A DNA stretch of 32,148 nucleotides from Nitrospirota bacterium. GTDB taxonomy: Bacteria > Nitrospinota > Nitrospinia > SZUA-224. Numbering within the stretch: the first letter of the stretch is position 1; each line of letters opens with the position of its first letter. The stretch is from NCBI GenBank assembly GCA_003229375.1, contig QIDP01000006.1, positions 1 through 32,148 on the forward strand. The letters are read 5' to 3'. The position numbers and the translations under genes are program-made. The notes beneath the pieces are model-generated. The model was not told the origin of the DNA. It made no database searches and saw only the letters and a list, made by a program, of their open reading frames with translations. This document shows positions 3,731-31,882 of the stretch, piece after piece.

Positions 3731-4129
3731 CTAGTAGCGCGTTATAGGAGACCATATCCGGGTAGAAGCAATTGTTTGCCGGTCGCTCGTCAAGTAAGGA
3801 GAACTCCCAGTTGGAGTTCTCCTTACTTGACGCTGAGGGGGAGTAACAGGTGGTTTGAACTGATAGTCATATTTTCTTTCCATTGCCTCTATCTTTCTCT
3901 TTAGATCGGCATGGGTAGATAGCATTTCTTTTATTTTGATAAATGCCCGCATAATTTGGATATTGACCATAATGGCTCTTTTGCTGTTTAATACGCTTGA
4001 CAGCATTGCTACGCCTTGCTCTGTAAAGACATAAGGAAGCTTTCTGACGCCCCCCATCTTGACATCACAATTTATTGCCAATCGAGTATAACCCCGACAA
4101 GAAAGGTAAGAGGGGCCAAATACCATCAA
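3731..4129 (-). pseudogene. ORF6N-domain protein, truncated copy
   Basis: An open frame of 132 codons, of which only the middle part is recognisable: [20 protein letters not shown], then [20 protein letters not shown] and the ERKYDYQFK segment. These match the conserved C-terminal half of ORF6N (KilA-N related) proteins. The N-terminal DNA-binding part is missing, and after QFK the frame runs into unrelated hairpin-containing sequence. It is interpreted as a decayed gene of phage or accessory origin. Confidence 0.6.
3788..3832. repeat. Perfect 20-bp hairpin inside the broken ORF6N copy
   Basis: Left arm CGTCAAGTAAGGAGAACTCC, loop CAGTT, right arm the exact complement. It begins shortly after the ORF6N similarity ends (near 3856) and lies in unrelated sequence. 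It may be part of an inserted small mobile or REP-like element. There is no T-tract, so it is not a typical terminator. Confidence 0.75.
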
Positions 4130-4207
4130 AATACTTTACAGACAGTGCTGTTGAAATTTCAAAACTTTTTGAAAAGCGCGAACTACTAAGAACCATGGAT
4201 GAAAACA

Positions 4208-4231
4208 TCGGCACTTTTTAATAAGTGCCGA
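4208..4231. terminator. Short hairpin, terminator-like
   Basis: Inverted repeat TCGGCACTT/AAGTGCCGA with a TTTAAT-type loop, in otherwise featureless sequence between the ORF6N remnant and the AbiEi-like gene. It lacks a strong T-tract, so the terminator call is tentative. Confidence 0.35.
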
Positions 4232-4368
4232 TAGATTTATCCAAACCGAATTTTATGAAAGGGTCTGACCCACTGGTTAACAGAGATGGTTAAAAATTGG
4301 CAAAAAATTTGTTCATATGGTTTATGCGCACAGATTTGACAGATTATCCCGTTATTTTAAGCATAATA

Positions 4369-4385
4369 CCCTAAATAATTTAGGG
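4369..4385. promoter_or_regulatory. Inverted repeat at the abiE-type leader (possible operator)
   Basis: CCCTAAA-TAA-TTTAGGG is a perfect 7-bp inverted repeat ending right at the GGGGG ribosome-binding site of the AbiEi-like gene at 4395. AbiEi antitoxins are known to bind inverted repeats in their own promoter, so an operator role is plausible. It could equally be an mRNA hairpin that masks the ribosome-binding site. Confidence 0.4.
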
Positions 4386-4394
4386 GGATGTGCA

Positions 4395-5006
4395 ATGAAA
4401 CAGCTGTCTAAAGAATCTTTTCAAAGACTTTATGGAATTGCCGAAATGCAACAAGGGTTTTTCACTACCAAACAGGCAATAGCTGCTGGTTATGCTGATA
4501 AGACTCACTATTAAAATGTTCATGCCGGCAATTGGATAAGGGAATACCGCGGCATCTACCGCCTATCCAATTTTCCCCACTCCGAAGAATCAGATCTGGT
4601 AATATGGTCTCTATGGTCTCGAAATAGACAATATATCCCCCAAGGCATTTATTTTTACGAAACCGCCCTCAGCATTCATGACCTTTCCGATCTAATGTCC
4701 TCAAAACTCCATATGATTGTTCCACCCAGATTTCGCCGCAACAGTGAAATACCAGAAATAATAGTTCTCCACCGAGCTCAGCTACAGGAAAGTGATATTG
4801 AGGCAAGACAGGGTTTTCAAGTAACCACGCCGCTGCGTACTATTACTGATCTCATGGTAGAGCAAACGGTTACCCCCGATATTATTACGCAAGCCCTGCG
4901 TGAAGCTGTTGAGAAAGGACTTATTACTCGCGGCGCTATAAAACAAGTAAAGTCACAAACTATACAACTACAACTGGAAGCTATTTTTCAAGAGGTTAGT
5001 CTATGA
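4395..5006 (+). pseudogene. AbiEi-type antitoxin with in-frame TAA
   Basis: Starts at an ATG with GGGGG 7 nt upstream: MKQLSKESFQRLYGIAEMQQ, then a winged-helix-like region, GNWIREYRGIYRLSNFP, and a C-terminal domain ending LQLEAIFQEVSL. This matches type IV toxin-antitoxin AbiEi proteins of about 200 residues. A TAA at 4512-4514 interrupts the frame after residue 39 (DKTHY-stop-NVHAGNW). The same frame then runs 164 codons without another stop, so a single nonsense change is the simplest explanation. The final TGA overlaps the next gene's ATG (ATGA), as in intact abiE operons. Confidence 0.75.
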
Positions 5007-5152
5007 TTGAATCCAGGAAATATGCCACAGCGACCGCATTTCGCAGAGCGCTGGAGGAGCGCCTAAAACAACGAGCCCGCGAGGAACAAGTAGACTTGCA
5101 GCGTTTACGGAGACAGGTGGCCTTTGACCGCTTGTTGGCCAGATTATGTTGA
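5003..5152 (+). pseudogene. AbiEii-type toxin, truncated N-terminus (49 aa)
   Basis: Starts by ATGA overlap with the upstream antitoxin. The peptide ESRKYATATAFRRALEERLK and then VDLQRLRRQVAFDRLLARL is the usual N-terminus of the AbiEii nucleotidyltransferase toxin associated with this type of AbiEi. It stops at residue 49, before the GG-S-D-D nucleotidyltransferase motif. The remaining 200 or more residues are absent and the DNA runs directly into the end of the convergent intact toxin gene. Confidence 0.7.
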
Positions 5153-5189
5153 AGCGCGTGTGGATGGCCGTATTTTTGTAGCCAGTGAT

Positions 5190-6077
5190 TCATAAAACAT
5201 CAATAGCAGACCTCAAAATGTTATTGAAATTGTCTAATGTCCCCTGAAGGCTAAAAGATTCTCTTTCCCTGACAGTCAATACAGGAAACAGCTCATCATC
5301 AAATCTTGATTTCATTCCGTTAATCTCTTCTTTAGCTCTGCCTAAATTGTGGCTATACTTCCTCAGGTCAGAAGAAAAACCATCTTCTTTGAGTTTCATC
5401 TTAAAAAGAGTTATTAATTCTCTATCCTTAAAATCAAATCCTGTTTTAAGCAAATATCCTAAATCGTAAAAATCCCTCGGGGCAATTGTAATTCTCGTAG
5501 CAGCAGCCCTCATTTTTTCAGCCACAAGTTCCTTTAACGCAAGGCACATTACTCTACCAGAACTAAAAAGAGGCTTGCCGGTAAAAGGATGTAAAAAATT
5601 ATGGCTAATTTCATGGCTTTCTGCCGGCAAAACAGGATTAAATCTCAGTCCAATTTCCAGTTTAATAGATTCTTCTTTATCTAAAACAACCGAAATGTAA
5701 TTGAGATAATAAATATATTGAGCTGACTCCCTGTGTCCTGCTTTATTTTCATTTTTAATATTCATATCATAGCTTTCTGCAAAAGATTTTATTGATTCTT
5801 TTATTGGCCGTATTGCATTTCTTCGCATTGACCTGGTTGTATTATCCTTCGAAAGCTTAAGGGTAAAATCCAAATCCTCGCTTAACCGATAATAAGAATA
5901 ATAAATTTTATTTAAGCAGGTTCCTCCTTTCAGGATTAAATCGTTACTCAACCTCTTTATATCTGATAAGATAATCGTCAGGTAATAATCTTTTTCAAGC
6001 ATTCTAAGGGGAAAGCCTGTATTGGCAGAAGCTCTCTCTAAAATTTTAAGAAATTCATCTTTATTTTGGTGCAGCAT
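5190..6077 (-). CDS. AbiEii-family nucleotidyltransferase toxin
   Basis: 295 residues from the ATG at 6077; a TTG at 6083 gives two more. The nucleotidyltransferase signature is intact: LILKGGTCLNKIYY (residues 48-60) followed by LSEDLDFTL (65-73), with the two metal-binding aspartates D68 and D70. The family includes type IV toxins that add nucleotides to tRNA or otherwise use NTPs to block growth on phage infection. It overlaps the 3' end of the upstream antitoxin-like gene by about 17 nt, so the two are co-translated. It appears complete, unlike the convergent plus-strand AbiE pair. Confidence 0.85.
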   Translation of the reverse strand: MLHQNKDEFLKILERASANTGFPLRMLEKDYYLTIILSDIKRLSNDLILKGGTCLNKIYYSYYRLSEDLDFTLKLSKDNTTRSMRRNAIRPIKESIKSFAESYDMNIKNENKAGHRESAQYIYYLNYISVVLDKEESIKLEIGLRFNPVLPAESHEISHNFLHPFTGKPLFSSGRVMCLALKELVAEKMRAAATRITIAPRDFYDLGYLLKTGFDFKDRELITLFKMKLKEDGFSSDLRKYSHNLGRAKEEINGMKSRFDDELFPVLTVRERESFSLQGTLDNFNNILRSAIDVL

Positions 6078-6870
6078 TTTCAATAATACCCCATTTTTTA
6101 TTTATCCTGCCTTTTCTTGATTTTGTATTGTAAAGAGTAATTAAAGAAGTTCCTTTGATGCTCTTCCACAGGGGAGCTAATTTCCTGCTGTTCAAACCAC
6201 AACTATCAATTATAAAGCCTATTCTTTTTCTTGTAGAAACACTGGGAAAAATAGAGGCGTATTTGATAAATTTCCTTATATCTGTTTTTTTATTGCTTAT
6301 CTGATTTTTAACTATCTCAAAGGATTTCTTCAGCCCACCAACAGGATTAGGAAAATAGATAAGATCAACAAGGGTTCTCTCTTTATCACTTATAATCACC
6401 TCTGCATTGTTAGCCTTAATTTTTTCAAGCCCATACATCCTTTTATCTGAAACTTTGATGATTTTAAATTGTAAACCGCTAATAACTTTTTCCCGCTGCA
6501 TTGTTGTATTCAGGATAAACATGGTCTGATAAATCTGTTCAGTAAAACCATAATAATTATACATAGTAGAATATCCTATATAATAATTTCCATCTGGAAA
6601 AAGAACAGAAGCTATTAGAAATTCATTAATATTTCTGCCAGCAGGCCCTGATTCCAGAGGGGAGAAAATATATACCCCTTTTTTTATATTAGTAAGGATC
6701 CCTTTTTTCCTGAGCCTAAAGATTATCTGGTATCTTAGTTCAGGGGAAAAATTAAAAAAATCGTCAAACTGCTTTATTGTTATAATTGATACTTTTTCAT
6801 AAGACAGCCTGGCAATTACTTCTGTTTCCTTTGGGCCTAAATATTTCTTCGTTGTATTATTATTTTTCAT
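6061..6870 (-). CDS. AbiEi-like antitoxin/transcriptional regulator
   Basis: 269 residues, Lys/Ile/Asn-rich, with base composition more AT-rich than the core genes. The N-terminal 70 residues look like a winged helix (LRYQIIFRLRKKGILTNIKK), followed by the AbiEi-type core YYIGYSTMYNYYGFTEQIYQ. It is the partner of the downstream nucleotidyltransferase toxin, which it overlaps. No good Shine-Dalgarno precedes the ATG. A clear promoter lies at 6914-6941, 44 nt upstream. It is probably the neutralising and autoregulatory component of a type IV-like pair. Confidence 0.8.
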   Translation of the reverse strand: MKNNNTTKKYLGPKETEVIARLSYEKVSIITIKQFDDFFNFSPELRYQIIFRLRKKGILTNIKKGVYIFSPLESGPAGRNINEFLIASVLFPDGNYYIGYSTMYNYYGFTEQIYQTMFILNTTMQREKVISGLQFKIIKVSDKRMYGLEKIKANNAEVIISDKERTLVDLIYFPNPVGGLKKSFEIVKNQISNKKTDIRKFIKYASIFPSVSTRKRIGFIIDSCGLNSRKLAPLWKSIKGTSLITLYNTKSRKGRINKKWGIIENAAPK

Positions 6871-21790: not shown

Positions 21791-24700
21791 ATGGGCAGGA
21801 GATTATTGTTTGTGATAATAATAGCTTTTATGTTATTCGGCCCTGTTGATTATGCATCCTGTGATGGCCTTTATGTTGAGCCGGCAGGATTTTTTTCGAC
21901 ATACTGGATGGAGTATCAGAATTACCCGGATAAACAGAGCTGGGCCGAGCTGGATACCTTACGTGAGGCAGGCGGCACATGGGCACAGCCCTGCTGGCCA
22001 TGGACAGCTATCGAAAAGACGCCTTCCGGTTCTATGGAGGAAGGCATTGTGCATGATTATATATATTTTGATGATAATGGTAACCGGGCTGGTTTGAACC
22101 TTCTGTCAGAACAACTCACTTACCTTAATGGCCTTGGCTACCGGATAGCGCTAAAGATCGATCCTCCATTTGAAATTTCGAAGTGGAATAGTCCCTGGAA
22201 AGCCAGGGTTAAAACCGGCGATGATGATGCCCGGCAGGTCTTTTATGAAACCATGAAAAAACTTGCCATTGAGTATAATCATCTGGTCGATGCCTGGCAG
22301 ATCGATCAGGAGCCCAGTGACATCGTGGGTGGTACCTATTATAGTTACCAGGCCTATGCCAGGCTTCTTAAGGCCGGCTATTCAGGCATCAAGGATGGCT
22401 ATGCAGAGGCAGGCCGTGACCCTTCTGATGCCTTCGTGTTTTCTAGTTACTGGATTAGCCCGTCATGGATAAAAAATGTCTTTGAGTACCAGGCAGAGAC
22501 ATACGGCAGGGTCTTCCTGGATGGTGTGTCATTGCATCTGTTCCGGTCTAACGGGCCCGAGAACGATCAGGGCAATAGGAGCTCCGGTCAATTTACAGGG
22601 ACCATGGCCGATGCCATCACGCTGGGCCATTTGTATGGCCGGGACCATGGCATATCCTACCCGGTAGATGGAAGGGATACAACGCCGGTCGGGATGCTGC
22701 AATCGGCTTACTCGACTGATACTGAAGACCCTGAAAATGGTTACGGGGCAGCCCAGGTGCTTACCGGCGAGAATGAGCAGGCTAATTACCGTGCCCGTAA
22801 GGCAATTATCGAGCTGACACTGGGCTATGTGTGGTCAGGCTGGTCAAGACATTCGGTTGAGGGAGTGCCTAACAATGATCCTGACTGGTATGGGTACAGT
22901 ATATACTGGGGGGGAGGAGGTATCATTGATAGGACACCAAGAAATGATTCGAATAATGCTTACCCGCCTTTGAAAAAGAAAGAGGCCTTCTGGGCACTCA
23001 ATACCATAGGTGGCAGCATAGGCAGTCTTGACGATGGCACATCAATAAGGGCAGGAATATTGGCCGGAAAGCGGTTTCTGAGCCGCCTCAGTTTAAATGA
23101 TAACACCCGGCACGGGTACCGTTTTCTTGGTCCCGGACCGGATGGGCTTGACGGGATGGTCACAGCCCTCTGGGACGCAGACGGAACCAGTCAGGTAAAA
23201 CTCAAAACAGATGCGACTTCTGTTGAACTGGTTAAGCGGGGAGGAAAAGGGGACACTATTTATCCGGCAAACGGGGAAATCACCCTTGATCTTAGCCAGT
23301 CGCCCCGGTACATAATCGGTTCTGTGCTGGAACCTAATCGGGCAAGGATACACCAGATTTCTAACAGCGGACTAGACGCGCCCCGATTAGATAAAAATAT
23401 CTATGTCATTGATTTTCAGAGCGAGCAGGACGCCCCGGGCAGGAGCCTTATAGTGACCGTGCCTGATGGATGGACACCCCCTCAAACGACCTACAGCACA
23501 AGAGAGGGATTTACCACTGTAGAGCCCGGCCCGCATGTCGGGGCAAGCGTTACTGCCAGCGGCAATCAAATCATTGTCAGCCTCAGGACAATGCCTGCCG
23601 GCGGAACATTGCGCATCTATTACGGGGATGCCCGATCATATGCCATGCTGCTCGACCCGGGACACAACGGGGTCGTTGACGTGGGGGGAATAGCGAATAT
23701 TGCTCCTCCTGACCATGCATACCATAAACCGGGCGGAAGATCGCTTTACAATGATTTTATCGGTTACGGGTACACTGACAATGAATATGGGTCTACATGG
23801 TATAATAAAGATAGCCCCCGTAACGGTATCTTCGCAGATACTGGCTACCGCATAGAAACCACCAAACATAGATGGGGATTGAAAGCTAAGGTGGATCCGT
23901 GGTTTGACAAGTATAATGTCTTGGTTTACCTGGACTCCCCTGATATCTCAAAAGATGACTATTTAAGCGGACAAGTGGTATTAGCAAACGGGCAGACACC
24001 GGACAAGAAGGACAATGCAGCAGTATTCCACAATGTGGTCCCGCAGGACGGCCAAATAGAATTGGAGTTCACCTCAGCGCTGAATCCTAAGGGAAGGTAT
24101 ACCTGTGGTCTCTACGGAGTGGACATCTGGCCATCCGGGTTGGGAGCAGGTCCCGGGCGCAATGCTGCACTGAATGAACCCAATCGGTTTATAGTTAAAC
24201 TGGATAATATAGAAGTTTCCCATCTTTCACCTGATTTGACAATAACAGTAGTTAAGCCCACCTGGTCACCACCTGTTGTCTACTTGCCAATGGATGAAGG
24301 TAATGGCACTATCGCCTATGATGCAACCGACAACCATAACAACGGCACCCTTTCTGATCCTGCCATGTGGACAACAGAAAGCAAGGTTGGTGACTTTGCC
24401 CTTGATTTTGATGGGGATGATTATGTGGAGATTCTTCCCGGTGAGAGCACGAATTTCACCACCGAACTTACTGTGGAGGCATGGGTAAAATCCGATTCCT
24501 TTACCTATGGAAGTAGCTCTCAGATAGTGAGCAACTTGTCTTCGGATAACCCGGAGGACTATAAAGGATTCGAGCTGGTATTAGAGTATTATGATGGCGG
24601 TGGTGTTGATCTCAAGTTTAGAGTAGCAGATGGAGTATATGAATATACTGTTACTTCCTCAGAGACTCTCACCACAGACGAATGGTATCATATACTAGGC

Positions 24701-25861
24701 ACCTTTGACCAAGGGGTTATGAACATTTATGTAAATGGAGTGGGGAGTGAGCCAGAAACCATTGATTCTGAGACTATAGTTATGGATGACACAACCCCGA
24801 TTATGATTGGATCAGGGTTTGACGGCACTATCGACGAGGTCAAGCTTTATGATACAGCCTTAACAGCCGGGGAGATTTACCGGGAGCATCAAAGGTTTAC
24901 ATCGCTCACTGCACCGGATAATCTTGGTGCTGAGGTCTTATCGACTAACCAGATTGACCTGACATGGCAGGATAATTCCGACAATGAAGAGGGGTTCAGG
25001 ATTGAGCGGAAGATAGGGGAAGACGGGATTTATGTTCAGATAGATTCTGTAAAGGCTGGTGTAGAGAGCTATTCAGATACAGGTTTGTCCCCGGGTATAA
25101 CCTACTACTACCGGGTAGTGGCATACAATGCCGGTGGAAATTCACCTTACTCCTATGAATATGAAGCCAGTGCTACTACAGATAGTGTATCATTACCTGT
25201 TGCCTACTGGCCCATGAATGAGGGTGGAGAGAATATTATCTCCGATGTTGTCAATGGCAACATCGGCACTATCAATGGCGCTGCCTGGGTCACAGGTAAG
25301 ATTGGTTCAAGCCTTTCAGGCCTTACAGGCCTTGAGTTTGTTGACAACGAAGTTCCTGACTATGTCAGGGTTCCGGATAACAATACACTCGATATTAGTG
25401 GTTCCCTGACCCTGGAGGCCTGGGTAAATCTAAATCAGGAAGAAGGTGGCTGGGCCAAAAACAGATTTATTATTGCCAAACCCGGCGCTTATGCGTTTGG
25501 TCTGGCCAAAGGCAACCCCCGTCTGAAACTGCTTATCGCTGACCCTAGAGGGAGTAAGTATGATTATTGGCAGATACATACTGCTGATGTCTTAGTCTCC
25601 AAAGATCAATGGCACCATCTTGCAGCCACCTACAACACCGGCACCAACCTGGTTAAAATGTACGTGGATGGGGTTGAGGTCTATAGCGGGGCACAGAGTC
25701 GCGGCATTGCTATCAGCAACTCGGACCTGTACATAGCCCACGACTACGACCCCGAGACCAACAAGCACAGGTATTTCCACGGCAAAATCGATGAGGTCAA
25801 GCTTTATGATACAGCCTTAACAGCCGGGGAGATTGACTATAAGTATAAGACGACAAGATGA
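21791..25861 (+). CDS. Large secreted glycosidase-like protein with two LamG and one FnIII domain
   Basis: 1356 residues, preceded by AAGGAGGGAC at 8 nt. A signal peptide spans residues 1-25 (RRLLFVIIIAFMLFG, cleavage near YASC-DG, possibly a lipoprotein-like Cys24). Residues 30-370 look like a TIM-barrel glycoside hydrolase of clan A type: LKIDPPFE, AWQIDQEPSD with candidate acid/base E174, and TGENEQ with candidate nucleophile E327. A beta-sandwich region extends to about 820. LamG/concanavalin-like domain 1 spans about 825-1030 (YLPMDEGNGTIAYDATDNHN), FnIII about 1036-1130, and LamG domain 2 about 1133-1356. No membrane or sorting anchor at the C-terminus. Probably an exported polysaccharide-binding or -degrading protein; the enzyme activity is inferred. 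Confidence 0.8.
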   Translation: MGRRLLFVIIIAFMLFGPVDYASCDGLYVEPAGFFSTYWMEYQNYPDKQSWAELDTLREAGGTWAQPCWPWTAIEKTPSGSMEEGIVHDYIYFDDNGNRAGLNLLSEQLTYLNGLGYRIALKIDPPFEISKWNSPWKARVKTGDDDARQVFYETMKKLAIEYNHLVDAWQIDQEPSDIVGGTYYSYQAYARLLKAGYSGIKDGYAEAGRDPSDAFVFSSYWISPSWIKNVFEYQAETYGRVFLDGVSLHLFRSNGPENDQGNRSSGQFTGTMADAITLGHLYGRDHGISYPVDGRDTTPVGMLQSAYSTDTEDPENGYGAAQVLTGENEQANYRARKAIIELTLGYVWSGWSRHSVEGVPNNDPDWYGYSIYWGGGGIIDRTPRNDSNNAYPPLKKKEAFWALNTIGGSIGSLDDGTSIRAGILAGKRFLSRLSLNDNTRHGYRFLGPGPDGLDGMVTALWDADGTSQVKLKTDATSVELVKRGGKGDTIYPANGEITLDLSQSPRYIIGSVLEPNRARIHQISNSGLDAPRLDKNIYVIDFQSEQDAPGRSLIVTVPDGWTPPQTTYSTREGFTTVEPGPHVGASVTASGNQIIVSLRTMPAGGTLRIYYGDARSYAMLLDPGHNGVVDVGGIANIAPPDHAYHKPGGRSLYNDFIGYGYTDNEYGSTWYNKDSPRNGIFADTGYRIETTKHRWGLKAKVDPWFDKYNVLVYLDSPDISKDDYLSGQVVLANGQTPDKKDNAAVFHNVVPQDGQIELEFTSALNPKGRYTCGLYGVDIWPSGLGAGPGRNAALNEPNRFIVKLDNIEVSHLSPDLTITVVKPTWSPPVVYLPMDEGNGTIAYDATDNHNNGTLSDPAMWTTESKVGDFALDFDGDDYVEILPGESTNFTTELTVEAWVKSDSFTYGSSSQIVSNLSSDNPEDYKGFELVLEYYDGGGVDLKFRVADGVYEYTVTSSETLTTDEWYHILGTFDQGVMNIYVNGVGSEPETIDSETIVMDDTTPIMIGSGFDGTIDEVKLYDTALTAGEIYREHQRFTSLTAPDNLGAEVLSTNQIDLTWQDNSDNEEGFRIERKIGEDGIYVQIDSVKAGVESYSDTGLSPGITYYYRVVAYNAGGNSPYSYEYEASATTDSVSLPVAYWPMNEGGENIISDVVNGNIGTINGAAWVTGKIGSSLSGLTGLEFVDNEVPDYVRVPDNNTLDISGSLTLEAWVNLNQEEGGWAKNRFIIAKPGAYAFGLAKGNPRLKLLIADPRGSKYDYWQIHTADVLVSKDQWHHLAATYNTGTNLVKMYVDGVEVYSGAQSRGIAISNSDLYIAHDYDPETNKHRYFHGKIDEVKLYDTALTAGEIDYKYKTTR
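24836..25834 (+). repeat. 42-bp identical direct repeats within the LamG gene
   Basis: The stretches 24836-24877 and 25793-25834 are identical over 42 nt. They encode the LamG-ending motif EVKLYDTALTAGEI in both copies, while the rest of the two LamG domains has diverged strongly. Confidence 0.9.
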
Positions 25862-26757: not shown

Positions 26758-26790
26758 AAAAAGGGGAGTACTTTTCGTACTCCCCTTTTT
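26758..26790. terminator. Strong rho-independent terminator
   Basis: AAAAAGGGGAGTAC-TTTTC-GTACTCCCCTTTTT: a perfect 14-bp stem with A/T tracts on both sides, so it works in both directions. It lies 78 nt beyond the stop of the minus-strand rhodanese gene, which it most likely terminates. Confidence 0.85.
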
Positions 26791-26867: not shown

Positions 26868-28130
26868 CTATTGATACCACCACGGCTGCCCCAGACCATT
26901 GCAGATATTATCACCGGTAGGTTTACACCCTGTGCCCTCACCAGAACAAGGATAGTCAGTTTGCGTTCCCGCCCCAACTTCTCCCCATTCATTCCATGAA
27001 GGTGAATAGTTAGAGACATTTGCATATCCAAGCATCTTGAGTACCCAATAGGTCAAACTTGACCTGACCCCGGCTTGTCAATATACAGATATATATTTAT
27101 CACGTGTAACACCATTGTCCATATATAGGGTTCCCAGTCCGGCAGGAGGCTGAAATCTCCAGTCATTAGTTCCCCCATAAGTATTAGAAGAGATAAAATT
27201 CTCTTCAAAATCTATCTGTGTAGCGCATGGTAGATGATGATCGGTAAATTCACCCAGAGGTTTTGTCGCGTTCCAGGTTCCATAATCACCAATAGTAGCC
27301 ACCCACGCATAGGCAGGGTCAGCCTGAGCACCCTCGGCCAGATGCTCGTATATAAAACATCCGGTACCATATATTGAGTCATTGACGAGTTGCTTATTGT
27401 TAGGATCATATGTTACTGTGGGTGCTGCCCCTTTTGCACCAGAGGTACCACCATCTTTAACCCACTGCTTCCATTGACCATTGAGCAGATGAAGCTTTGT
27501 GATGTCGTGACCCACCATCTCCAGAACCCACAAGACATAGGTTGCAAGATCACCCCGGCCAAAAATATTTGTTGAATAATCATATACAACCAGATTATCA
27601 TTCTCGGTTATACCTACCGCTGCAAGTTTGTTCTTTATTTTTCTCACATCTTTAAGAACCCACTTTACTATTGAATTTGAAGTCGCATGACATTCTCCAT
27701 TGGTTGGAGCGGTAGGACCGGTCCCCAGGGTAAGTTTGGTCGCAAAGTCTTTAAATAGAAGTGCGCCCGGGATAATCTTGGTAGTATCCACACCGGTCCC
27801 TGAAATAGCCACAATGACTTTTGCATCAGGGTGCTGATCTATCCATGCCTTATCCACAAGGCGTCTTGTCACTGTAACGTCATGAACTCCGTATATTTGC
27901 TTTTGATTCACTGTTGCCCCGGCTGTTATCTGAGCCTCACCCTCACTCACACCTGATACAAGACCGTCTGAATCGACTTTAGCTATGGTGTTATCGTCAG
28001 AAGCGGTCCATGTCCAGGCAGGGCTCTGACCGGCACATCCCGCACCTACCAGGGTAGCTGTATATGGGGTATCAACTGTATAATCGATCGTGGAAGCAGT
28101 ACCTATATTTACAGTAGGGAGTAGGGGCAT
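26868..28130 (-). CDS. Secreted tandem rhodanese with predicted selenocysteine (TGA at 27078-27080)
   Basis: Reads as 350 codons, TGA, then 69 codons to TAG in one frame. An Ig-like (Big-type) domain (AWTWTASDDNTIAKVDSDGL) precedes two rhodanese domains. The first (LVDKAWIDQHPDAKVIVAIS, later LLNGQWKQWVKDGG) has aspartate (VVYDYS) where Cys would be, so it is inactive. The second has ATQIDFEENF, then KYISVY-TGA-QAGVRSSLTYWVLKMLGY. Rhodaneses carry the catalytic Cys in a C-x-x-G-x-R loop exactly where the TGA stands, so selenocysteine is predicted; a SECIS-like hairpin follows at 27050-27065. Probable role: extracytoplasmic sulfur or selenium transfer. The frame lacks its own signal peptide and good ribosome-binding site, and is probably the continuation of 28072-29169 after a one-base frame change. 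The alternative is a pseudogene with a Cys-to-stop mutation. Confidence 0.8.
27050..27065 (-). promoter_or_regulatory. Putative bacterial SECIS element
   Basis: Twelve nt after the TGA the minus strand reads AGGTCA-AGTT-TGACCT, a perfect 6-bp stem with a four-base apical loop whose second base is G. The distance from TGA to the loop is 18 nt. A G in the first two loop positions and a spacing of roughly 16-37 nt are the known features of bacterial SECIS elements. Flanking CC/GG can extend the stem below an internal loop. Confidence 0.65.
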
Positions 28131-29169
28131 ATCCCTTCTTGGGCGCTACAACTACTGCACAATCCAATTCAAATTTTACAGCATCAGCAACAATAACTGA
28201 ATCTTTACTCCTGCCACTGCTATCATCATTATCCGTAATTGTTACGCTTCCACCCTGTCCTTCTACAAATGTTCCGCTTCCTATCGGGACCCATGTCTCA
28301 CTCTGTGATTGTATGTCAACAGTATATGAAATATCTGGATACAGATCAGAGATAATATATTCCGCAGTATCTGCCCGCCACCAGGTGACACTGCCGCTTG
28401 GCCAGTATCCATATACATTATAGAGCCCTGTCACAGGGAGATAGGGTGTCCAGACAGCCTCGTCTGTTATCCCATCCGTGGTGCTTGCCTGGAGATAACT
28501 ATATCCGTAGTAAGTCCCCCAAAGCCAACCTCCTGTTCGTGTTTTCCAGGCACCTGTTAAAGCCGCCTCCTCGGTATCTGCTATAATATCAGTAGGAATC
28601 GACGCAGCGTTTAGTAATGTAAACCTTACCGAATCTGCTATTACAATCTTTGTATCCGCACCCTCATCTGTAATCTTAACACTTCCGCCTGTACCTGCAT
28701 TAAAATAGAATGTCCCGAGTGATACATATCCATCAACCGGTGGCGTTGTTGGCCGGTAATATTGATTACGGACTACTGTAGCCCAATCAACCCCGCCCTG
28801 TTCATTAACATATGTTATCTCATATTCCGCATTTTTTGTACGCCAACCTCTCAAACCATCTATCCAGCATGCCTCTACCTCATAGAAACCTGCCACAGGG
28901 AGATCAGGGATCCATGTTAAGGTATTTACCGCGTCAGTAGTAGAGGCCTCAAGATAATCTGTTCCCTCACAGGGTGCCCCCCCTATATGTGATCCGTCTC
29001 TCGTGTTCCATGCACCTGTTTTTTCAACCCGGCCTGACCCTATAAAGGGGCCAATGCTATCGTCATTATCAACTATTATCGGAGCAAATGCATGGACAGG
29101 CTCTCCCCCTGTTATTACCATGCCAAACATTACTGCCACAACCGCTATTATTGCTATGAAACGACTCAT
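28072..29169 (-). CDS. Secreted protein with two golvesin C-terminal-like domains, N-terminal part of the rhodanese gene
   Basis: ATG at 29169 preceded by AGGAGGAATAAG. Signal peptide residues 1-27 (FIAIIAVVAVMFGMVI, VHA-FA cleavage). Two copies of a beta-rich domain of the golvesin C-terminal/xanthan-lyase-associated type follow, each with GAW...YL-AS-TTD, W-P-LPV-G-Y-V, AEYEI, GSVKITDE and I-ADSVRF (roughly 32-200 and 205-330). Such domains bind carbohydrate or serve as extracellular modules. The frame then reads VVVAPKKG and enters 20 unrelated codons, while the plus-one frame from 28130 continues with an Ig-like domain. The 59-nt overlap and the lack of a usable ribosome-binding site for the second part suggest one gene of about 766 residues with an indel near 28132. 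Confidence 0.8.
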   Translation of the reverse strand: MSRFIAIIAVVAVMFGMVITGGEPVHAFAPIIVDNDDSIGPFIGSGRVEKTGAWNTRDGSHIGGAPCEGTDYLEASTTDAVNTLTWIPDLPVAGFYEVEACWIDGLRGWRTKNAEYEITYVNEQGGVDWATVVRNQYYRPTTPPVDGYVSLGTFYFNAGTGGSVKITDEGADTKIVIADSVRFTLLNAASIPTDIIADTEEAALTGAWKTRTGGWLWGTYYGYSYLQASTTDGITDEAVWTPYLPVTGLYNVYGYWPSGSVTWWRADTAEYIISDLYPDISYTVDIQSQSETWVPIGSGTFVEGQGGSVTITDNDDSSGRSKDSVIVADAVKFELDCAVVVAPKKGYAPTPYCKYRYCFHDRLYS

Positions 29170-29330
29170 CTTATTCCTCCTTTCTGTTTTAAAAGGTTTA
29201 AATAAACCACAAGAGGACGCAGAGATTTGCTCTGAGTCTCCAGCACGACTTTTTTACAGGATTCTATCCTCTCCATCCTGTTAATTCTGTCTGAAAAAAC
29301 GGAAGTTCTTCTCCTATTAAATCATGGAAT

Positions 29331-29360
29331 AGTATAACCTGTATAGTTTTAATTTGTCAA
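29331..29360 (-). promoter_or_regulatory. Promoter of the golvesin-rhodanese gene
   Basis: Minus-strand TTGACA (29360-29355), 18 nt, TATACT (29336-29331), with an A-tract upstream. It lies just beyond the radical SAM gene stop (29378) and gives a leader of about 155 nt that includes an ACAGGAT/ATCCTGT hairpin. The gene can therefore be expressed apart from its upstream neighbour. Confidence 0.65.
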
Positions 29361-29377: not shown

Positions 29378-31882
29378 TCAGCAGCAAACATCTGTATCAC
29401 TATCACAACATGGCACACCTTGTGTCTCGCTTATATCCTTGTCCGGCTCTTTGATAATAAACAAATCTTTGTAGGGTGGCCTCTTTAACTTCTCTGCAGT
29501 ATCGGTGCAGATCTCCACGGACTCATTCCTCGGGAAAATATGTCCTTCCTCGTCAATAATAGCCTTGAACGGACCTAGATACATCCCCTTCTCTCCCCGG
29601 TATACGCACCCTGCCCTCTTCTCAAACTTATAGCCCCGGATTGTTACCGAATAGAATCTGTAGCCTTCAACATCCTTCCAGTATGTCTTTTTCAGGATCG
29701 ATAACCCATAAAAACCTGCCTCTTCGAGGTAAGAAAGAAACTCCTCCTCTGTAAGTGCACCGGTCAGACATTCCCCCCAGAGCCTCTCATTCGAGCGCAG
29801 ATGGTGGGGCACCTCTCTTTCCGATACAATATCAGAGATCAGTATCCTCCCCTCATTCCTCAGCACCCGCCACATCTCTCTGAATACGGCCTTCTTATCC
29901 GGCGAGAGATTGATAACACAGTTGGAGGTTATCAGGTCAACTACCTTATCTTCTACAGGTATCTCCTCGAGAAATCCCCTTCTGAACTCTACTACATCAT
30001 AGCCCAGATTTTTTGCCACCTTAACCTTACACTCCTCTGCAACCTTCAACATCTGATCCGTCATATCTATCCCTATGACCTTACCTGCGGGACCGACCTG
30101 TTTTGCGGCTATAAAGCAGTCTATCCCTGCGCCCGAGCCAAGATCTACGGCTATCTCTCCCTGCTGAAGACCGGCCAGATTCATAGGGCTGCCACACCCA
30201 TAAAACCGCTCAAGGACCTCTTTGGGAATATGATCTGTATCTGCCCTGTCATACACGGTCGGACAACAAAGGTCTTCTTGCGGCTCCTCGGCAGCCTGTC
30301 CATAAAATTCCCTTACCACCTCCCTTGACCTGTCTATATCAATAGATAATACACAGGTAGAATGAAGAGTCCCTACCTCCATAACCGCGGGTGTCCCCCT
30401 GTTTCCATTAAGGGTACTGCAGAATGGAAGGGCCTTACCCATTGCCGTATAGATAATAGGGCTGTTAAACCCGGATTTTTTATTAAAGGAGTCCCTCTTA
30501 TTATTAGCAAGGTCAAAGAGTGTACTGAGGATGATCTCCTTATAGAGCTCACAATATGGATCTTCACCAAGTACATTTCCAACCCCATGTATTGCCGATG
30601 CATAAAAATAGCTGTGCTCGATATCACCACCACCGCAAAGGAATTTCAGATAGCAATCACGGCACCCTGCCTTCATCTGAACTGTTGCATCTCTGAAACT
30701 ATTGATGATCTTACTCTCAAGCCATATCTCTTTTAATCCTTGTTTGAAGACATCCCCGCATTGCAATGCCTCATATCCTGCAAAGGAGGCAGAGGGATAG
30801 ATCATGCCATCTGAATAGAGACAAAGGCTTTCCCAACCTGCATTGCTCAGATCATATTTAAACCCTCTCCCGTTTATTATCCTGTTCTTTATAACCTCCA
30901 GATTATCCAGGGTAATCCCTCTCTTTTCAGCCTCTTTACCTGCCTTCTTTACTGCTGTGATCAACCTTTCAGGTGAGAGAAATGAACCATTCTTATTTTC
31001 TAAGACACGTCCCCTCCTGTGCAGCCAGAGGAAGTGATGATTTTTTACACCCAGATCTGCAACAAGGTTGACTATATCAGGAAGGTCATCCACATTGTCA
31101 GACATGAGGACTGTTGTAACTGTTGGCGAGAATCCTGCATTTATGGAGTTTTTGATCCCGTTTATGATTTCCGTAAAGGTCCCCTGACCCCGTATCGGGT
31201 CATTTATCATGGGAGTAGAACCATCCAGGCTGATCTGTAACTTCAGCTTGAGGGGATCAAATCCTGACAGTTTCTTGATCGCCTCTCCCCTCAGGAGGGT
31301 GCCATTTGTGAGGAGAATAAGCTCTGCATCCTTAACACGGATTACATAGTCTGTCAGGTCAAATATATCCTTACGGATCAAAGGCTCTCCTCCTGTAAAG
31401 AAGAACCTGAACACACCCAATTCGCATGCCTCATCAATGATCTCCCTGATCTTATCAGTAGATAGGCTCTCCTCCTTTACAGGGGCAGAGTCGACCAGAC
31501 AGTGCGAACAGGAGAGGTTACATGAATTGTTGGTGTGTATCCATAGTTCATGCAGACCCGAGGGTTTCAAAAAACTCCCTCTCCCCGGGTAGTAGGTCCT
31601 CGCGGCAGGACTAATAGATGCAAACTCCTCATTTATCGCCTGCTTCAGGAAGGTATTGACATCAAGCCACCCTTTTGCAATATCGATATTAAAATCTCTG
31701 GTATATCCAATAACAATATCTCTGAAGGTCTTGTGTCCATTTATATAGCTTAATATCTTTGCGCCCCTCTGGTCCGTAACTGCCCAGTTCGGGCGTTCAG
31801 GGTCTATCAGGAGAAATATATCCCCCCTCTCCATCTGGGAATAGTTAGGGATATTAAGTATTGTCTTTTCAGTCAGTTCCAT
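29378..31882 (-). CDS. PqqD-like / radical SAM-SPASM / ArsM-like methyltransferase fusion
   Basis: 834 residues, cytoplasmic. Residues 10-95 look like a PqqD/RRE-type winged fold (LLIDPERPNWAVTDQRGAKI). Radical SAM domain about 110-330: C121-C125-C128 in NNSCNLSCSHC and FFTGGEPLIR. A SPASM-like Cys cluster follows at C354, C375, C407, C410, C416 and C444. From about 500 an As(III) S-adenosylmethionine methyltransferase-like domain: SAM motif AVDLGSGAGIDCFIAAKQVG (578-597), SNCVINLSPDK (653-663), GECLTGAL (703-710). The four ArsM cysteines have equivalents: C539/C540, C563, C655, C704. It ends PCCDSDTDVCC, two vicinal cysteine pairs. Probable substrate: arsenic, or a peptide or metabolite to be methylated; unproven. 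The weak ribosome-binding site comes from repeat copy C. Confidence 0.85.
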   Translation of the reverse strand: MELTEKTILNIPNYSQMERGDIFLLIDPERPNWAVTDQRGAKILSYINGHKTFRDIVIGYTRDFNIDIAKGWLDVNTFLKQAINEEFASISPAARTYYPGRGSFLKPSGLHELWIHTNNSCNLSCSHCLVDSAPVKEESLSTDKIREIIDEACELGVFRFFFTGGEPLIRKDIFDLTDYVIRVKDAELILLTNGTLLRGEAIKKLSGFDPLKLKLQISLDGSTPMINDPIRGQGTFTEIINGIKNSINAGFSPTVTTVLMSDNVDDLPDIVNLVADLGVKNHHFLWLHRRGRVLENKNGSFLSPERLITAVKKAGKEAEKRGITLDNLEVIKNRIINGRGFKYDLSNAGWESLCLYSDGMIYPSASFAGYEALQCGDVFKQGLKEIWLESKIINSFRDATVQMKAGCRDCYLKFLCGGGDIEHSYFYASAIHGVGNVLGEDPYCELYKEIILSTLFDLANNKRDSFNKKSGFNSPIIYTAMGKALPFCSTLNGNRGTPAVMEVGTLHSTCVLSIDIDRSREVVREFYGQAAEEPQEDLCCPTVYDRADTDHIPKEVLERFYGCGSPMNLAGLQQGEIAVDLGSGAGIDCFIAAKQVGPAGKVIGIDMTDQMLKVAEECKVKVAKNLGYDVVEFRRGFLEEIPVEDKVVDLITSNCVINLSPDKKAVFREMWRVLRNEGRILISDIVSEREVPHHLRSNERLWGECLTGALTEEEFLSYLEEAGFYGLSILKKTYWKDVEGYRFYSVTIRGYKFEKRAGCVYRGEKGMYLGPFKAIIDEEGHIFPRNESVEICTDTAEKLKRPPYKDLFIIKEPDKDISETQGVPCCDSDTDVCC

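Follow-up and report, generated by a model that had tools for sequence, protein, structure and literature searches.

The window analysed here is a 32,148-nucleotide stretch of the assembly of an uncultured Nitrospirota bacterium, GCA_003229375.1 (contig QIDP01000006.1, positions 1 to 32,148). On its reverse strand, a single frame of 420 residues runs from an ATG at 28130 to a TAG at 26868, provided that an in-frame TGA is read as a residue. This TGA, the only one in the frame, falls at residue 351, with 350 codons before it and 69 after it. It lies in the second domain of a double rhodanese that is preceded by an Ig-like domain, and an open reading frame encoding golvesin-type domains is found further upstream (Table 1).

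Table 1. Features of the rhodanese locus and of related loci (L numbers) elsewhere
Feature	Position	Strand	Evidence or remark
Promoter-like TTGACA-18-TATACT upstream of golvesin ORF	29331..29360	-	Consensus match only
Strong Shine-Dalgarno AAAGGAGG 5' of ATG 29169	29176..29183	-	Read from sequence
Golvesin ORF: signal-peptide-like start MSRFIAIIAVVAVMFGMVITGGEPVHA (judged by eye) and two Golvesin_C stretches	28072..29169	-	E 7.7e-40
Perfect 7-bp tandem duplication CCCTACTCCCTACT (CCCTACT CCCTACT)	28113..28126	-	Breaks frame between golvesin and Big_2/rhodanese parts
Big_2, bacterial Ig-like domain	27852..28130	-	E 5.9e-6
Double-rhodanese region 5' of TGA; first domain without catalytic Cys, loop VVYDYSTNIFGRG	27081..27851	-	
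Predicted Sec codon, in-frame TGA, at C-terminal rhodanese catalytic position	27078..27080	-	Frame, Pfam, structure/homolog alignment
69 post-TGA codons finishing rhodanese domain, then TAG	26868..27077	-	
bSECIS-like hairpin AGGUCA-AGUU-UGACCU, 6-bp stem, loop begins 18 nt past TGA	27050..27065	-	
Terminator-like 14-bp inverted repeat and T run, 3' of TAG (not TGA)	26758..26790	-	Absent from list of separate pattern scan
YUxUEG double-TGA rhodanese family, genus-specific	L039:2013-3818 and 3894-5255; L042; L043; L044; L040:2192-3988; L045; L046		
Cys-Cys version YCSCEG, Asp-rich repeats and choice-of-anchor U domain	L040:2-1858	+	G001 contig 3

The sequence-only reading had placed the TGA at the Cys of a rhodanese C-x-x-G-x-R loop, had described the frame as open for 69 further codons, and had proposed an alignment with Cys-containing double rhodaneses. 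All of this is borne out. At residues 334-383, the Pfam Rhodanese match (E 5.8e-10) spans the TGA, and the catalytic Cys of PDB rhodaneses falls opposite it, with YCRIGERSS in 3aax aligned to YUQAGVRSS in the window protein, whose loop reads U-Q-A-G-V-R. The same column is Cys in 33 of the 33 Cys homologs from the same class. The protein has the two domains of a COG2897-like double rhodanese (PF00581), the second with a C-x-x-G-x-R loop in which the predicted Sec replaces Cys, and the in-frame UGA aligned with the Cys of homologs is flanked by conservation on both sides, the pattern by which selenoproteins are recognised. With no catalytic Cys in the first rhodanese domain, Sec351 would be the sole catalytic residue. 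An AlphaFold2 model built on a four-row alignment was of low confidence (mean pLDDT 33).

If the TGA were a true stop, as standard annotation would have it, the product would be a 350-residue protein ending before the active site, perhaps a non-catalytic binding protein in keeping with a first domain that likewise has no catalytic Cys. However, such a stop would sever the rhodanese fold at its active-site strand, and the downstream frame itself scores as rhodanese (E 0.0015 for the post-TGA part alone, slightly below the family gathering score). The terminator-like repeat, moreover, comes after the TAG. Codon usage is gene-like across the 69 codons in frame and ceases to be so beyond the TAG, and an open stretch of 69 codons occurs in 1.7% of composition-matched shuffles. 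We consider termination at the TGA very unlikely.

The machinery for Sec insertion, whose presence in the same genome had been proposed as a check, is complete, an outcome that favours the sequence-only reading. On contig 74, selA, selB and the gene for tRNA-Sec (anticodon TCA) lie side by side, and selD is on contig 14, with all matches exceeding curated cut-offs. The selD gene carries a TGA of its own (motif HGAGUACK) followed by a strong hairpin. Within the phylum, selA was detected in just 4 of 77 genomes, which include both of those whose rhodaneses contain TGA. A changed code or readthrough, by which the TGA would be read as Trp or Cys, would also leave the frame open, but TGA ends other genes in the window normally, and the TCA-anticodon tRNA beside selB is tRNA-Sec; such a reading is extremely improbable. 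The molybdopterin oxidoreductases of the genome were considered as additional selenoproteins and rejected, as none has a convincing in-frame TGA.

Just downstream of the UGA lies a stem-loop with a G within the first two loop bases, as in a bSECIS element. By energy it ranks in the top 3.9% when compared with random TGA contexts, so that its stability alone is unexceptional, and an AGUU loop on a stem at least as good as that in the window, within the spacing range, occurs in 2 of 9216 TGA contexts including the window's own, both criteria having been picked after the sequence was seen. A hairpin with an AGUU loop recurs 21 nt past the second TGA in each sequenced copy of a paralogous family with two TGAs (UxU), and it has been lost from the Cys-Cys (CxC) copy. 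Among four divergent paralogs, synonymous identity at the hairpin codons is 32 of 32 comparisons, compared with 62% elsewhere. Because one additional stretch is equally conserved in the same four paralogs, gene conversion may account for part of this conservation.

This paralogous family is found in the genome itself and in that of a congener. The former has four or five further rhodanese genes on contigs 79, 83, 96 and 170, where the piece on contig 83 and one of those on contig 96 may represent opposite ends of a single gene, and the latter has three more rhodanese genes containing TGA. Each paralog has two in-frame TGAs in the motif Y-U-x-U-E-G, within the same active-site loop, and a frame that is otherwise open. 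The N-terminus of some looks, by eye, like that of a lipoprotein or like a signal peptide, and in some Golvesin_C is located after the rhodanese; the UxU proteins are predicted to be exported double rhodaneses. In the congener, the YCSCEG gene sits immediately upstream of a UxU ortholog that is 79% identical, and the YCSCEG protein shares 43% identity with the protein at the corresponding position, a possible ortholog. The search for relatives with TGA or a Cys codon at this position, which the sequence-only reading had recommended, was thus answered in part: TGA is present in paralogs and a Cys-Cys version in the congener, but an ortholog of the window gene was not found. A scan of a collection of genome contigs with the window protein gave no relative, a class-wide search of 77 genomes returned Cys homologs and own-genome paralogs only, and the best matches in a plasmid search were ordinary sulfurtransferases of 25-32% identity.

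Two observations were made alongside. The last translated codons at the 3' end of L045 (CAJVYE010000216.1) read QIGRAHV, which is consistent with leftover Illumina adapter. In addition, contig 130 of G000 encodes a Cys-type rhodanese (YCWTSTRIGE; L041:1532-2455, reverse strand) with a C-terminal stretch resembling a membrane segment, adjoined by a carboxypeptidase-regulatory-like repeat protein.

The architecture of the window gene is complicated by a break in its frame. The golvesin ORF, in all probability the gene's own N-terminal part, does not share the frame of the Big_2/rhodanese part, and the break coincides with the 7-bp duplication, whose seven extra bases shift the frame by one; a version with a single copy of the repeat would join both parts, reading GYAPTVNIGTAS. 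The protein had been described as secreted and joined to Ig-like and golvesin modules. The Ig-like domain is indeed in the rhodanese frame, but as assembled the duplication parts the export portion from the enzyme portion: the golvesin domains and the signal-peptide-like start lie in the other frame, and no signal peptide shares that of the enzyme. A programmed frameshift from golvesin to rhodanese was considered and rejected because the perfect duplication explains the break. The duplication may be an assembly error, a recent mutation or a repeat-based switch, and as it shifts the frame, the window copy could be misassembled, or recently damaged and decaying.

The frame break invites the explanation that the TGA is itself a chance nonsense mutation, arising in a pseudogene already broken by the duplication. 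A single substitution would suffice to turn a Cys codon (TGC or TGT) into TGA, and with no ortholog found in the class-wide search, none is at hand to show selection on the window copy. Yet 46 codons of the frame could become TGA in one step, and 117 could become a stop of some kind, and it was the one catalytic codon that was hit. Besides the duplication and the TGA, everything else is open with gene-like codon usage, and the paralogs with TGA in the same loop, the Sec genes and the SECIS-like hairpin all stand against decay. We consider a pseudogene unlikely.

The TGA in the window thus most likely encodes selenocysteine, and the prediction of the sequence-only reading to that effect gains support from the Sec genes, the hairpin and the paralogs with TGA in the catalytic loop. 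Frame, domain, position, Sec genes, hairpin and paralogs are each supported by the sequence. Taking these together, we hold with considerable confidence that the TGA would be decoded as Sec by the organism's own SelA, SelB, SelC and SelD, and that the product would be the catalytic domain of an exported seleno-double-rhodanese.

Our model of how Sec is inserted, and of export, substrate and surface role, is inferred and runs as follows. SelA, SelB, SelC and SelD would insert Sec at the TGA under the direction of the adjacent downstream hairpin. The original protein would have comprised, in order, a signal peptide, two golvesin-type domains, one Ig-like domain and the rhodanese pair. On the model of sulfurtransferases, sulfane sulfur from thiosulfate, a polysulfide or a persulfide would most likely be taken up by the selenolate, outside the cytoplasm, as a Se-S intermediate and then be handed to an acceptor, with substrate and acceptor both presumed. 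The golvesin and Ig-like domains may keep the enzyme attached to the cell surface or to a ligand. The window enzyme would be one of a group of extracytoplasmic seleno-rhodaneses specific to this lineage, the double-Sec (UxU) family among them.

Most rhodanese selenoproteins are known as predictions only. At least five predicted exported seleno-rhodaneses occur here in one genus, with Cys versions alongside. Since one genus holds both Sec and Cys versions, the value of selenium in extracellular sulfane-sulfur transfer is directly testable. In automatic annotation, such genes would come out split or truncated at the TGAs.

The type of enzyme is not new. Five forms of rhodanese selenoprotein have been catalogued, UxxG included (PMC13188914, PMC9312934; GOS survey, PMC2398784). 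Sec at the catalytic Cys in a UxxG loop defines the rhodanese-related sulfurtransferase selenoproteins of forms 2 and 4 (cd01449/COG2897 in the GOS survey), and form 4 is named after COG2897 (SseA), a double-rhodanese group (PMC2398784, PMC13188914, PMC9312934). The window protein resembles these forms in having Sec for the catalytic Cys of a CxxG loop, and differs, as judged from the descriptions in the reviews, in that its gene has Big_2 and, past the frame break, Golvesin_C and a signal peptide. The same reviews name no golvesin or Big_2 architecture (PMC13188914, PMC9312934), and a library search turned up no paper that mentions golvesin together with selenoproteins. The architecture that the sequence-only reading had called unusual applies if the 7-bp duplication is discounted; the replacement of Cys by Sec in a rhodanese was already known. 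The novelty lies in the golvesin/Ig-like architecture outside the cytoplasm and in the family of UxU paralogs; the probable location, the combination of domains and the growth of the family are out of the ordinary. The UxU loop is absent from the rhodanese forms in a 2026 review (PMC13188914), and the UxU family is probably a greater novelty than the window gene itself.

The window protein and its paralogs were also compared with profiles and solved structures. The UxU paralogs match NF041203 (rhodanese_LYCAU; form 3, CxU) weakly and share with it an L-Y-x-x-U-like motif, but they reach no more than 28.9 bits where the cut-off is 115, and they carry U-x-U instead; the window protein does not match this profile. 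ExtH (NF040901), the outer-surface rhodanese-like lipoprotein of Geobacter, is likewise extracytoplasmic and is weakly matched by the protein from contig 130 as well as by the UxU paralogs. However, its 200-bit cut-off is not approached, no porin-cytochrome neighbours were seen, and the window protein gives no match at E 0.01; ExtH is a functional precedent for location and not a family match (PMC6148476, PMC5877670). The double rhodaneses 3aax, 3hwi and 1uar have, by sequence, the same two-domain fold with a C-x-x-G-x-R loop in domain 2, but they have Cys rather than Sec and are devoid of golvesin or Ig-like domains.

A broader scenario, which we offer tentatively and regard as somewhat doubtful, is that a Sec-decoding lineage built golvesin-linked extracytoplasmic rhodaneses whose active sites each contain either one Sec residue (UxxG) or two (UxU). 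Where two are adjacent, they could make up a diselenide or Se-S-Se centre serving surface sulfur or metalloid chemistry, and the 7-bp repeat in the window may be an on/off switch.

The window contains other genes of note. A 1356-residue protein, probably secreted, has fn3 and laminin-G-like domains (21791-25861, forward strand), and its N-terminal half has no Pfam match. A pair resembling the type IV toxin-antitoxin AbiEi/AbiEii lies at 5190-6870 on the reverse strand. On the same strand, at 29378-31882, an 834-residue fusion of a radical SAM/SPASM domain with an ArsM-like methyltransferase ends in a Cys-rich C-terminus (CCDSDTDVCC).
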